Of a DNA stretch of 39,108 nt, positions 19,274 through 24,706 are shown piece after piece. Within the stretch, counting starts at the first letter, position 1. Each line of letters begins with the position of its first letter. This DNA is from Actinomycetota bacterium. Lineage in GTDB: Bacteria > Actinomycetota > Geothermincolia > Geothermincolales > RBG-13-55-18. A program made the position numbers and the translations under genes. The DNA is taken from the NCBI GenBank assembly GCA_015711955.1, contig JACVJK010000012.1, positions 1-39,108 on the forward strand, read 5' to 3'. Under the pieces are notes generated by a model. It searched no databases, was not told the DNA's origin, and saw nothing but the letters and a program-made list of their open reading frames with translations.

Positions 19274-20104
19274 ATGAGGAGGTTTTTGAGGATTCTGATA
19301 TTTGCCATTCTTGGGTTCATCGTGACCGAGCTATCTGCGACTTACCTGGTGGAGCGAAGGTTGGACGAGGCCCTTGAGAGATGCACGGGCCTCGCGGGCA
19401 GCCTTCGCGTGAACTCCTTTCCGACCACCCTCTCACTGGCGCGAGGCATTTGGGGCGAAGCTCTTTGGACGTGGGAGGAGATGATGGAAGGGGAGATCCA
19501 AGGACCTGGCGGGGAGAGACGTGAGGCCTCGATGCAATGTCAGTTCAGGTTACATTTGAGGGGCTTTCGCTGGGGTGTCAACGACGCCCTCTTGGGAAGG
19601 CCTCCCGCGTTCGGAGGAGGGGAGGCGCAGTTGTGTTCCGTGTCAGTACCGAGAGAGCTACTGAGTGCTGCCAATGAGTGGCTAGATCCGGGATTTTACG
19701 AGGGCTGCGGGATAGGCGAGACACTGGAATTCATGGTCCAAGATGCGTCGCTGGCGGTCTACGCCAAGAATCTCGACTTGGACTCAAGAATTAAGGAAGA
19801 GAAGGGTAATGAGAATAACCTAAACGGCAACTTTAGTTTGTTATTCCTATGGAAACCTCGAAAATCGCCGTTGGGCAGCAGCTTGGTGGGATGTCGCCGT
19901 GTGCGTGAGAAGTTGGAGATGAGATGGGCCCTGCCCTCGGATGGACCCCGAATCAGCTCCTTCAAGGAAGAGTTAACGGTAGTTGAGGCTTTGACTCCCT
20001 ACATCGAAGGTTTAGGTTGTTGGGTTAAAGCTAAAGTAAAATGTCGTTATTTTCTGGAAAATCCCCGCCCTAAGGCCCTTGACAGACAATATTTTGTAGT
20101 TTAA
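19274..20104 (+). CDS. DUF2993 (LmeA-like) membrane-anchored protein
   Basis: The 276-residue protein starts with a hydrophobic helix (about residues 5-24), read as a signal anchor. After it comes an ERRLDEALERCTGLAGSLRV and SFPTTLSLARG pattern. This resembles DUF2993 proteins such as mycobacterial LmeA, which bind phospholipids at the outer face of the membrane. The rest is beta-rich with little recognisable detail. The start ATG at 19274 has GGGAGGAAAG upstream. Its 3' end overlaps the nrdR promoter. Base use becomes more A+T-rich toward the 3' end. The family call rests on the N-terminal pattern; a plain hypothetical secreted protein is the alternative. Confidence 0.55.
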   Translation: MRRFLRILIFAILGFIVTELSATYLVERRLDEALERCTGLAGSLRVNSFPTTLSLARGIWGEALWTWEEMMEGEIQGPGGERREASMQCQFRLHLRGFRWGVNDALLGRPPAFGGGEAQLCSVSVPRELLSAANEWLDPGFYEGCGIGETLEFMVQDASLAVYAKNLDLDSRIKEEKGNENNLNGNFSLLFLWKPRKSPLGSSLVGCRRVREKLEMRWALPSDGPRISSFKEELTVVEALTPYIEGLGCWVKAKVKCRYFLENPRPKALDRQYFVV

Positions 20105-20129
20105 AAGAATCTTAAAACACAATATGTTG
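20079..20129 (+). promoter_or_regulatory. nrd promoter with two NrdR-box-like repeats
   Basis: TTGACA at 20079-20084 and TAAAAG at 20102-20107, 17 bases apart, form a promoter. Two near-palindromes overlap and flank it: CAATATTTTG (20087-20096), inside the spacer, and CAATATGTTG (20120-20129), just downstream. Each matches the NrdR-box core CWATATATWG at nine of ten positions. They are 33 bases apart, about three helical turns, as paired NrdR boxes usually are. The sites lie 25-67 bases before nrdR, so NrdR probably represses its own operon with nrdD. Confidence 0.8.
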
Positions 20130-20153
20130 TTTCAAGCGTTTTAGGAGAGAGAT

Positions 20154-20636
20154 ATGAGGTGTCCCTTTTGTGGAGCTCCTGACACCAAGGTGGTTGACTC
20201 GCGATCTACCGATGGCGGATTGGTAATCCGCAGGCGCAGGAAGTGTCCGTCCTGTGCCAAGAGGTTCACCACCTTCGAGAGATTCGAGCAGTACCCGGTA
20301 GCGGTGATCAAGAGGAGCGGCGACAAAGAGCCTTACCGCCGGGAGAAGATATTGGCTGGCCTGAAGAAGGCATTCGAGAAGAGGCCCATCACCACGAAGG
20401 AGATAGAGGATTTGGTCTCAGAGATCGAGTGTGAGCTGAGAGAGAGGGGAGAGAAAGAAGTCCATTCCAGCATCATCGGCATGCTGGTGCTGAAGAAGCT
20501 CAAGGATCTGGACGAGGTGGCTTACCTGAGGTTCGCCTCCGTGTACAAGGATTTCAAGGACATCACCGAGTTCCAGCTGGAGCTGGGACAGCTGCTTGAG
20601 AAAAAAGAGAGAAAAGATCAGGAGGAAGAGGGATAA
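20154..20636 (+). CDS. nrdR: Transcriptional repressor NrdR
   Basis: NrdR represses ribonucleotide reductase genes when dATP is high. The 160-residue protein has the N-terminal zinc ribbon, with CPFC at residues 3-6 and CPSC at about 31-34, and RRRRKCP between. An ATP-cone domain covers about residues 49-140, with KRSGDKEPYRREKI and the ending ASVYKDFKDI. It lies 11 bases before nrdD and just after two NrdR-box-like sites, a complete autoregulatory unit. The ATG at 20154 has an AGGAGAGAG ribosome binding site. Confidence 0.98.
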   Translation: MRCPFCGAPDTKVVDSRSTDGGLVIRRRRKCPSCAKRFTTFERFEQYPVAVIKRSGDKEPYRREKILAGLKKAFEKRPITTKEIEDLVSEIECELRERGEKEVHSSIIGMLVLKKLKDLDEVAYLRFASVYKDFKDITEFQLELGQLLEKKERKDQEEEG

Positions 20637-20647
20637 GGGGGACCGTC

Positions 20648-23524
20648 ATGTCCGGAGAGACCATGCGGAGAGAGGATGGAGCAGAGGAGAGCGAAAGGGA
20701 CCACTCTTGGGAAGAGGATGGCTCCAGGAGGATATGGGTGCTGAAGCGCCGGGAAGCGGCGGAGGACACCACCGATATCGCTCTTTTGGTGAGCACATCT
20801 TCCAAAGAGGAGATCAACGTCTGGGATAAAGAGAAGATAGTGAAGTCTCTCATCCTAGAGGCTAACGCCTCCGAGGAGCTGGCCCGTGAAATCGCCGACC
20901 GAGTGGAGGAGCGCATAGTCCGAAGCAATCTCACCACCGTTACCACCTCCATCATAAGGGAGTTGGTGGACCTGGAGCTCTTGGAGAGGGGCCTGGGGAC
21001 CATGCACCAAAAACACTCCCACTTGGGATTGCCCATGTACGACGTGGAACAGATCATCACAAACCCCAACAAGGAGAACAGCAACACCACCCATAATCCC
21101 GAGTCCATCAACCTAACCCTGGCCGAGGCGATCCTCAAGGAGTTCGCGCTTCGCAAGGTCTTCTCGGAGGACGTGGCCCGGGCCCATATGGTAGGAGATA
21201 TTCACCTGCACGATCTGGGCTTCATTATTCGGCCCTATTCCTATTCCGGGGATACCGTGGTGCACTGGAGGCTTGCGGGATCCCCTCTCTCCTTCACCAC
21301 CACCATGGAGCAGCTTTACCACCTCTTTTCTGGGGAGATCTCACCCGAACCTGGGGTGAGGGTCAAATACCCCGAAAATTTGGAGATACTGGATCGGGAT
21401 GGGTGGACTCGAGTAAGGCGTTTGGTGAAGAAGGATCGGCTGGGCAAGCAGATGGTTTTCATCGCCTTAGAGGACGGGAAAAGCACCATGGTGACTTGGG
21501 ATCATCCAGTGATAACCACTGACGGAATAAAACCCGCCTCCGAGGTTTCGGTGGGGGATGAGCTTGAGGCGGTGAATACCACTGACCTGCCCGCTATAGA
21601 CCTCACCCGCATATTAGGAGTGTGCGGCTCTTCCTTCAGGTTGAGGTTCAGTACCTTGGACCTCATCCTCGCTCACCAGCGGGCGGAGGAATTGGTGGCG
21701 GAGAGCGCTAGGCTGAGAAAGGGAAATCCGACGGGGCTTTCCCCATCCCATCTCCGCCCAGCCTCGCCTCGGACCAGAAAGGTGGTCATGGTTCAACCGG
21801 TGGAGGTTCTCGATGTGTACATCTACGACGTAACCACCGATACCGGGACCCTAGTGGCGGACGGCATCTACAGCCACAACTGCGGGGGACACAGCTTAGA
21901 TTACATAAAGAAGTACGGCCTTTCCCTTCCCAACATAACCAGCACCTCAAGACCGGCCAGGCACCCGGAGGTGCTCATCGGCCACATGGTGAAGATGGCC
22001 TCCACCCTCCAATCCCATTACGCCGGGGCCATAGGCTGGGAGGCGGTGAACATGTTCTTCGCCCCCTATTTGGTGGGGTTGGAATACCAACGCATAAAGC
22101 AGCTGGCGCAGATGCTCATATACGAGTTCAACCAACTGGCGGGGGCTCGGGGAAGCCAGGTGGTTTTCACCGATTTCAACCTCTACTGGAACATACCTCG
22201 CCATTTCAGGAACACCCCCGCTATAGGCCCAGGGGGTGAATACACCGGAAAGACCTACGGAGAGTACGAAAAGGAAGCACAAGCCTTCCTCTGGGCCCTA
22301 TTCGAGGTCTACCTCGAGGGGGATGCCATGGGGAAGACCTTCGTCTTTCCAAAGCCCCTTCTCCACATCAACGATGATTTCTTCCGGACTCCGGGCCACC
22401 AAGAATTCCTGGATCTGGCGTGCCGCGTGGCCTCCAAGCAGGGCATCACCTATTTCGTATTCGACCGCGGGGATGAGGTCACCGTGTCCCAGTGCTGCCG
22501 CCTCAAGTTAAGGCTGAAGGAGAAGGACTTAGAGGAGGCCATGACCCCGGAGAAGATGCGCTTCAGCGCTTTGCAGAACATCACCATCAATCTCCCGCGC
22601 ATAGCCTATAAGGCCAACGGTTCCGATGAGATCCTCTTCCACGAACTGGAGAAGGCCATGGAGCTGGTGGTCAAGGCCCACCTGCAGAAGCGGGATTTCA
22701 TAGCTGGCCTGCTCAAGCTCGGGGTAAATGGCCCCTTGTCCCTGTTGTGCGACAGCAAAGACGGAGAGCCGTACCTGCGGATGGAGAGGCTGACCTATCT
22801 GGTGGGCCTGTTGGGACTCAACGAGATGGTCCAATATCACATAGGGGAGCAGTTGCACGAGTCGGAGAGGGCGCTCAAGTTCGGCCTGCGGGTGGTGGCC
22901 CATATGCACCTGCTGTGCAAGAAGCTGTCGGAGAAATATGGGATCAATTTGGTGCTGGAGGAGTCGCCCGCCGAATCCAGCGGCTATCGTCTGGCCAAGC
23001 TGGACATGAAGTACTATCCCGAACAAGCTTCCAAGGTGATCAAGGGAGACTTGGCCTCTGGCGAGTATTACTACACCAACAGCGTTCACCTCAACGTCGA
23101 GGCACCTATCGACTATATCGAGAGGGTGAGGAAGCAGAGCATGTTCCATCCCCTCATCGAGGCGGGGGCCATCATCCACATATGGTTGGGCGAACACGAA
23201 CCGGATCCGGCTTCCATAAAGAACTTCGTCATTAAAACCTTCTACCAGACCCAGGCAGCCCAGATAGCTTTTTCCCCGGAGTTCACCGTGTGCAACACTT
23301 GTCGCACCACCTCTCGAGGCCTGCACGACGCTTGCCCCCGCTGTGGCGAGGAAGACGTGTACGGGATCACCAGGATAGTGGGATATTTCTCCAAGATCAG
23401 TACCTGGAACAAGGGAAAGTTGGGCGAACTCAAGGATCGCGTGAGGACCGACTTGAACGGCAGGTTGGTGAGGGGCAAGAGAAGTCGGGGTGAAGGGGGT
23501 GTTCGCGAAGTCTTCGGTGCTTGA
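20648..23524 (+). CDS. nrdD: Anaerobic (class III) ribonucleoside-triphosphate reductase with intein
   Basis: NrdD reduces ribonucleotides to deoxyribonucleotides using a glycyl radical. The 958-residue precursor has an N-terminal ATP-cone (about residues 30-115) for allosteric control and then the reductase barrel. The barrel is interrupted by an intein at residues 198-411, leaving a mature protein of 744 residues. Cys616-Cys617 in SQCCRLKL marks the thiyl-radical loop. The C-terminus has a zinc site (Cys882, 885, 896, 899) and the radical Gly912 in RIVGYFS. A thioredoxin-fold gene and an nrdG-type activase follow. It starts at ATG 20648, directly after nrdR, so both share the NrdR-controlled promoter. 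The enzyme is oxygen-sensitive, implying anaerobic growth. Confidence 0.97.
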   Translation: MSGETMRREDGAEESERDHSWEEDGSRRIWVLKRREAAEDTTDIALLVSTSSKEEINVWDKEKIVKSLILEANASEELAREIADRVEERIVRSNLTTVTTSIIRELVDLELLERGLGTMHQKHSHLGLPMYDVEQIITNPNKENSNTTHNPESINLTLAEAILKEFALRKVFSEDVARAHMVGDIHLHDLGFIIRPYSYSGDTVVHWRLAGSPLSFTTTMEQLYHLFSGEISPEPGVRVKYPENLEILDRDGWTRVRRLVKKDRLGKQMVFIALEDGKSTMVTWDHPVITTDGIKPASEVSVGDELEAVNTTDLPAIDLTRILGVCGSSFRLRFSTLDLILAHQRAEELVAESARLRKGNPTGLSPSHLRPASPRTRKVVMVQPVEVLDVYIYDVTTDTGTLVADGIYSHNCGGHSLDYIKKYGLSLPNITSTSRPARHPEVLIGHMVKMASTLQSHYAGAIGWEAVNMFFAPYLVGLEYQRIKQLAQMLIYEFNQLAGARGSQVVFTDFNLYWNIPRHFRNTPAIGPGGEYTGKTYGEYEKEAQAFLWALFEVYLEGDAMGKTFVFPKPLLHINDDFFRTPGHQEFLDLACRVASKQGITYFVFDRGDEVTVSQCCRLKLRLKEKDLEEAMTPEKMRFSALQNITINLPRIAYKANGSDEILFHELEKAMELVVKAHLQKRDFIAGLLKLGVNGPLSLLCDSKDGEPYLRMERLTYLVGLLGLNEMVQYHIGEQLHESERALKFGLRVVAHMHLLCKKLSEKYGINLVLEESPAESSGYRLAKLDMKYYPEQASKVIKGDLASGEYYYTNSVHLNVEAPIDYIERVRKQSMFHPLIEAGAIIHIWLGEHEPDPASIKNFVIKTFYQTQAAQIAFSPEFTVCNTCRTTSRGLHDACPRCGEEDVYGITRIVGYFSKISTWNKGKLGELKDRVRTDLNGRLVRGKRSRGEGGVREVFGA
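21239..21880 (+). other. Mini-intein inside NrdD, Ser at position 1
   Basis: The 214-residue insert (NrdD residues 198-411) interrupts the conserved RPYC-GHSL-type segment: the flanks read GFIIRPY and then CGGHSLDYIKKYGL. Block A is SYSGDTVV, with Ser rather than the common Cys as residue 1. Block B is VTWDHPVIT, with Thr86 and His89. Block F is LDVYIYDVTTDTG, and the C-terminus is DGIYSHN with the penultimate His and final Asn, followed by Cys+1. No LAGLIDADG or HNH endonuclease domain is seen between blocks B and F, so it looks like a splicing-only mini-intein. The insert is in frame and its GC content resembles the host gene. Splicing itself is inferred. Confidence 0.93.
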
Positions 23525-23902: not shown

Positions 23903-24706
23903 TTGACTGATGGGAAAGGGAGACATGAAAGGCTGGTACGATTGCGGATCACGGACAAGTTATTCGAGCAGTCGATGAGAGAGATCACCAGGGACATCTA
24001 TCTCGATCGCCTATATGGCTTTCTTCCGGCCAGCATGCTTGACTGGCCCGGACGCTTGGTTTCCGTCCTCTTCGTTTCCGGTTGTAACTTCCGGTGCCCT
24101 TATTGCCACAATCCCGAATTAGTGAAACCCCAGGAAGAGGGAGGGTTCTTTTGGTCTGAGCTGGAGGGGTTTTTCAATGAGCGAGAGGGTTGGTTGGATG
24201 GGGTGGTCATAACGGGAGGAGAGCCTACCCTTTATCCGGACCTTCCGGAGCTGTGCCGCAGGCTCAAAGGAGCTGGGCTGGGGGTGAAATTGGATACCAA
24301 CGGTTCCCGCCCGGAAGCGTTGCAGCGCCTCTTGGAGGAAGGCTTGGTGGACTTCGTGGCCATGGACGTCAAAACCTCTTGGGCGCGTTATCCAATGGTG
24401 GTGCGCCGCCCATTTCCCGTGGACGAATTATCCGAAAGGCTCAAGGAGTCCGTATCTCTTATCTTGAAATGGGGAGGAGAGCACGAATTCCGCTGTACGG
24501 TGGTTCCCGATCTGGTGGAGGAAGAAGATCTGTGGGCTATAGCCGATTCGCTCAGAGGTGGCAGTAAGTTGGTGCTTCAGGCTTTCCGTTCTGAGAAGAC
24601 CTTGGATCCGGGCTGGAAGGGCAGAAAGGGATATCCCCCTGAAAGGTTGCATTTTTGGGCGGAGAAGCTGTCCGGCATCCTCCCGGTCGAGGTGCGGGGG
24701 GCATGA
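23903..24706 (+). CDS. nrdG: Anaerobic ribonucleotide reductase activating protein (radical SAM)
   Basis: The protein has the radical SAM cluster CNFRCPYCHN near residue 61, preceded by SVLFVSGC and followed by TGGEPTLYPDL, the usual SAM-binding glycine region. It reductively cleaves S-adenosylmethionine to place the glycyl radical on NrdD. At 267 residues it is longer than the short E. coli NrdG and resembles the larger NrdG2-type activases. Its position next to nrdD makes the assignment firm. The start is unclear: the frame opens with TTG at 23903, immediately after the upstream stop, without a good ribosome binding site. The true start may lie up to about 30 codons downstream. Confidence 0.93.
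   Translation: MTDGKGRHERLVRLRITDKLFEQSMREITRDIYLDRLYGFLPASMLDWPGRLVSVLFVSGCNFRCPYCHNPELVKPQEEGGFFWSELEGFFNEREGWLDGVVITGGEPTLYPDLPELCRRLKGAGLGVKLDTNGSRPEALQRLLEEGLVDFVAMDVKTSWARYPMVVRRPFPVDELSERLKESVSLILKWGGEHEFRCTVVPDLVEEEDLWAIADSLRGGSKLVLQAFRSEKTLDPGWKGRKGYPPERLHFWAEKLSGILPVEVRGA

Follow-up and report, generated by a model that had tools for sequence, protein, structure and literature searches.

A mini-intein with serine at position 1 and a catalytic host cysteine at +1 in the class III ribonucleotide reductase of an uncultured actinomycetote

The gene for the class III ribonucleotide reductase, NrdD, of an uncultured actinomycetote, with Candidatus Solincola and other Actinomycetota MAGs as its named relatives, carries an insert of 214 codons that by every available structural and comparative test is an intein. 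It begins with Ser and stands directly before a Cys that is at once the +1 residue of the intein and a catalytic residue of the host enzyme. We consider it likely that the insert is a functional class 1 mini-intein, the inherited relic of a homing intein, and that its splicing is constitutive. The DNA analyzed, referred to below as the window, is a stretch of 39,108 nucleotides (contig JACVJK010000012.1, positions 1 to 39,108), and features in it are on the forward (+) strand.

Host gene and insertion site

The ORF at 20648-23524 specifies 958 amino acids and is recognized as NrdD by PF13597 (E 1e-145) and by TIGR02487 (428 bits, cut-off 326). It sits between nrdR, the gene for the transcriptional repressor of ribonucleotide reductase genes (20154..20636; TIGR00244, 198 bits, cut-off 125), and the gene for an NrdG2-type radical-SAM activase of NrdD (23903..24706; TIGR02495, 197 bits, cut-off 131). 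Two palindromes resembling NrdR boxes, 33 bp apart, are present 5′ of nrdR (20084..20132; individually 20084-20099 and 20117-20132). They account for four matches, two sites on both strands, where 0.14 would be expected by chance, and there are no further such matches elsewhere within the window, so that ordinary transcriptional control of nrdR-nrdD via NrdR boxes is likely. The window's own genome also encodes, on contig 21 (locus L039, 904-3030), a class II ribonucleotide reductase of the B12-dependent NrdJ type, and NrdD is therefore not the sole ribonucleotide reductase of the organism.

Codons 198-411 of nrdD (21239-21880) are inserted in-frame between those for RPY and CGGHSLDY. The first is TCC for Ser1 (of SYSGDTVV), the last two are CAC AAC for His213-Asn214, and TGC for Cys+1 follows. 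When the whole NrdD was compared with 39 relatives, the match split exactly at query residues 197/412, and the genomes of 14 relatives have an uninterrupted RPYCGGHSL from which the insert is absent; hence this is a precise insertion into a conserved host protein and not a part of normal NrdD. A first-pass annotation made from the window alone had placed an intein with just these junctions and had named alignment of residues 198-411 with ordinary NrdD as the outcome that would tell against it; the alignment came out the other way. As the frame is open across both junctions and the product has a predicted HINT fold, an intron was rejected. The N-extein (20648..21238) has 197 amino acids ending in HDLGFIIRPY and no cysteine, and the C-extein (21881..23524, stop codon included) has the SQCC radical motif at 22493-22498.

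A profile built from seven NrdDs with empty sites was aligned to the Thermotoga maritima NrdD structure 4coi, and RPYC fell on its residues 122-125 (MPYC), so that Cys+1 (21881..21883) corresponds to T. maritima Cys125. The latter, equivalent to Cys79 of the T4 enzyme and Cys175 of that from E. coli, is the cysteine of the reductive half-reaction (PMC4493059). Thus a single residue serves as the +1 nucleophile in splicing and, in the spliced product, in catalysis, and the earlier surmise that Cys+1 is a conserved, catalytic Cys was sound. Inteins are commonly inserted at active-site motifs (PMC7765530), so the placement in NrdD is expected in kind.

Fold and splicing motifs

Judged by sequence profiles alone, the case for an intein would be weak: TIGR01443, for the intein C-terminal region, is above its cut-off of 15.6 (18.7 and 16.5 bits), and TIGR01445 and PF14890 match the insert below their curated cut-offs. 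A profile of the intein family, on the other hand, matches the Pyrococcus abyssi PolII intein 2lcj with an E of 2.6e-9. The AlphaFold model of the 214-residue insert (overall pLDDT 80, rising to about 90 in the splicing parts and low in the linker) matches RadA, PolII and TFIIB inteins at E values of about 1e-8, the best being 7.6e-9, and among the 50 PDB matches listed all are inteins, bacterial intein-like domains or Hedgehog HINT domains, so the modeled fold points to HINT. A domain profile search of the insert gave no match to a LAGLIDADG or HNH homing endonuclease, which makes it a mini-intein. The description in the annotation of an intein with Ser1 and no visible endonuclease is borne out on each count.

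Block A, SYSGDTVVHWRLA (21239..21277), was located by alignment and has Ser1 at 21239-21241. Block B, GKSTMVTWDHPVIT (21476..21517), has Thr86 and His89, both invariant in all aligned members; block F, VLDVYIYDVTTDTG (21806..21847), has Asp197; and block G is the ADGIYSHN end (21857..21880), where TIGR01443 scores above cut-off, with penultimate His213 and terminal Asn214. Residues 113-180 (21575..21778) form a linker of low pLDDT in the former place of the homing endonuclease; its aligned counterpart in larger inteins is the stretch that leads up to and enters the LAGLIDADG domain. The linker includes Cys129 (21623-21625), the sole Cys of the window intein.

Ser1, Thr86, His89, Asp197, His213 and Asn214 are conserved in all aligned mini-inteins of the family; a relative in a neighboring family (genome G015) has GE in place of GD in block A. 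When all inteins at this position, here called site a, are considered, a hydroxyl residue at position 1, Thr86, His89, Asp197 and Asn214 are present in every aligned one and His213 in all except that of genome G025. Position 1, the block B Thr and His, the block F Asp, the terminal Asn and the +1 residue together assign the intein to class 1. Assignment to class 3, with its WCT set and Cys at block F position 4, was rejected because Asp197 stands there, and assignment by sequence to class 2 (the KlbA type, with Ala1 and a penultimate Ser) was rejected because of Ser1 and His213. Nor is it a ‘cysteine-less’ Ser1/Ser+1 intein, for which +1 would be Ser or Thr and motif NX [RK]-His, since here these are Cys+1 and Lys64-Lys65.

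Distribution, relatives and selection

A Ser1 mini-intein of 212-223 amino acids is present in all 15 genomes of the family and in G015. The intein tree groups them in a single clade (SH-aLRT 99), though the intein branches are long and the supports in the extein tree modest (80-88). Site a is empty in G016, of the same order, which implies one loss or a second gain, so descent has not been strictly vertical. In a wider survey of site a, covering 397 genomes sampled from the phylum, six had other inteins there (G025, G098, G276, G294, G368 and G177). These are Thr1 forms, with an ACN codon versus TCN for the Ser, and where complete they are full-size, with 380-424 amino acids; LAGLIDADG_3 was above cut-off in two of the three tested (G025 and G276, not G368). 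G025 has an intein at site a where its sister G022 (support 99) has none, as is expected of a mobile element. The emphasis placed on Ser1 in the first-pass annotation needs adjustment: Ser1 is present, yet it is unusual only when paired with Cys+1, and the Thr1 relatives had been missed.

No relatives of the mini-intein were found in viral contigs or in phage or plasmid records. When the Thr1 form was compared with phage proteins the matches were weak (23-24% identity) and mostly to annotated endonucleases, and so no vector was found. An AlphaFold model of a Thr1 intein, built on three sequences and with a pLDDT of 58, was left out of consideration. The Thr1 intein of G025 (L037, 4147-5418), which has LAGLIDADG motifs, ends in Lys-Asn and not His-Asn, so that this single intein departs twice from the usual splicing residues. 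G294 has either two NrdD copies or strain variants, on contigs 42 and 12 (L079 and L091); in both, a Thr1 intein begins at site a, and the contig end truncates the second.

Across 13 family members the two splicing parts have median pN/pS values of 0.25 (N-terminal) and 0.15 (C-terminal), against 0.64 for the linker and 0.13 and 0.07 for the two exteins; synonymous sites are highly diverged and the values are correspondingly rough. Constraint on the splicing parts beside a loose linker is as expected if splicing still works and the endonuclease is dead.

Residue pair and motif NX

An intein in GOS TerL was described in a 2023 paper as ‘the only known’ one with Ser1 and Cys+1, and the available literature, with rarity as stated in that year, treats the pair seen at NrdD as nearly unique. 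The inteins at NrdD site a are either Ser1/Cys+1 or Thr1/Cys+1. Thr is listed among the position 1 residues of class 1 (PMC5222942), and a literature search found no characterized natural Thr1 intein.

The motif NX of Ser1/Ser+1 inteins is Arg/Lys-His (PMC10189870). In the family alignment its equivalent in the window intein is Lys64-Lys65 (21428..21433); the mini-inteins of the family have Lys-Lys, G015 has Arg-Lys, and the Thr1 forms have Lys-Lys or Lys-Arg. The assignment is by motif alignment, and when sites a and b (below) are compared profile to profile the register just before block B is one residue off. Since the window intein has no His at all from residue 29 to residue 88, however, the lack of an NX His is independent of alignment register.

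A second site in NrdD, site b (ARG^S...HN^SQVVF), is empty in the window and is occupied in G003, G007, G010, G015, G018, G022 and G025 by inteins of 574-577 amino acids that are Ser1/Ser+1 and have LAGLIDADG (L031, 2297-4018, and also L032-L037); some NrdDs hold inteins at both sites. The endonuclease parts of the two kinds align well in the profile-profile comparison. All seven site-b inteins have Arg68-His69, aligned with the Arg-His of PI-PkoII, their closest solved relative. Absence of the NX His at site a, where +1 is Cys, and its presence at site b, where +1 is Ser, fits the idea in the 2023 paper that this His may help Ser or Thr at +1. The lack is not a strict rule for Cys+1 inteins at site a, as a divergent paralogue has Ser1/Cys+1 together with Arg-His. 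That paralogue, on contig 23 of G098 (L089, 1-5061 on the minus strand), has three inteins at once: the one at site a, of 250 amino acids; a full-size Ser1/Thr+1 intein at site b; and a Cys1/Cys+1 intein immediately ahead of the radical motif's CC pair (INE^CLTKD...THN^CCRL).

More than 20 genomes together provide Ser1 and Thr1, each paired with Cys+1, at one and the same site, and some of the same proteins also hold a Ser1/Ser+1 intein as internal control, so that whether the NX His serves Ser1, or Ser/Thr at +1, becomes a testable question. The same site offers an evolutionary series of empty, homing and mini forms, and the pairing of a non-thiol N-terminus with a thiol at +1 could be useful in ligation chemistry.

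Splicing and its possible control

In constitutive class 1 splicing, which we favor, Ser1 would form an oxyester with the N-extein and the acyl chain would then be handed to Cys+1, converting oxyester to thioester. Cyclization of Asn214 and an S-to-N shift would leave native RPY-CGGHSL with its catalytic cysteine restored. Replacement of Cys1 by Ser usually kills Cys1 inteins (PMC10189870), and the Ser-to-Cys acyl transfer at this natural junction is accordingly putative. The ancestor was probably a larger homing intein at site a whose LAGLIDADG domain has since been lost; once mobility was gone the mini-intein would have been inherited with nrdD in the actinomycetote family, and kept because precise deletion is rare. 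Cys at +1 would be imposed by the host active site, and position 1 may have drifted between Ser and Thr.

At site a, position 1 can be Ser or Thr with Cys+1 invariant, and Lys or Arg replaces the NX His, the proposed activator of Ser1; this might instead suggest splicing like that of class 2 inteins, which also have Cys+1 (PMC4031507). The chance of this is small: position 1 has a hydroxyl side chain in every case and is never Ala, the block F Asp is conserved, the divergent Ser1/Cys+1 paralogue retains the NX His, and where class 2 inteins have Ser as penultimate residue (PMC4031507), here His is conserved, with Lys in G025. Still harder to credit is a dead insert that does not splice, with NrdD either lost or working unspliced and the class II enzyme taking over. 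The presence of that NrdJ-type enzyme in the same genome could make NrdD dispensable; nevertheless, both exteins and both splicing parts are under strong purifying selection, all catalytic residues are conserved and the frame intact in 15 genomes, and the insert splits the protein in two exactly where its catalytic Cys lies, all of which make such a fate scarcely believable.

The first-pass annotation had proposed that splicing depends on redox state. Splicing, and with it activation of NrdD, would then occur only in a reduced cell, Cys+1 being otherwise oxidized or disulfide-bonded. Cys+1 is indeed a thiol as well as a catalytic residue, a redox switch is proven for other inteins such as M. 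smegmatis DnaBi1 (PMC6195587), and 11 of 14 aligned family members have a Cys84 two residues before the block B Thr. However, the partner cysteines described for such redox-gated inteins are in intein or extein (PMC6195587), and the alignment reveals no conserved Cys partner for the catalytic Cys in the N-extein or the window's intein. Cys84 is absent from the window and its genus; Cys129 is in the unconserved, fast-evolving linker and confined to that genus, where it is shared with the closest genome only; the intein of one member, G003, has no Cys; the N-extein is Cys-free; and the nucleophile Ser1 is not oxidizable. The associated notion that NrdD is needed only without oxygen carries little weight for this host, whose genome (79% complete) yielded neither a haem-copper nor a bd oxidase and encodes the class II enzyme, and NrdR with its boxes already offers control of the operon. 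Redox gating of the window intein is on this evidence very unlikely, and an unregulated, constitutively spliced class 1 mini-intein remains the reading that we prefer.

Comparison with known inteins

The NrdD of Methanocaldococcus jannaschii also carries an intein, and so shares its host protein family with the window intein. The same host family is shared by the intein in the NrdD of Clostridium phage c-st (PMC3653736). The closest match by sequence profile, and among the closest by fold, is to the PolII mini-inteins of Pyrococcus (Pab, 2lcj; Pho, 7oec/5bkh), which have in common with the NrdD intein the segment from block A to block B and the lack of a homing endonuclease; the NrdD intein differs in host, site and flanking residues, with identity below 20%. 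With the ‘cysteine-less’ inteins of Aes123 PolB1 (9hth), PolB16 (8cpn), PI-PkoII (2cw7) and TFIIB (5o9i) it shares Ser1, the block B Thr and His, the block F Asp, the HN end and the fold. In contrast to those Ser1/Ser+1 (or Thr+1) inteins, it has Cys+1, and Lys65 replaces the NX His. Compared by residues, the GOS TerL intein has in common with it Ser1 with Cys+1 and no NX His; the NrdD intein is however contiguous and not split, its host is NrdD and not TerL, and it belongs to an inherited mini-intein family of 16 genomes with Thr1 relatives.
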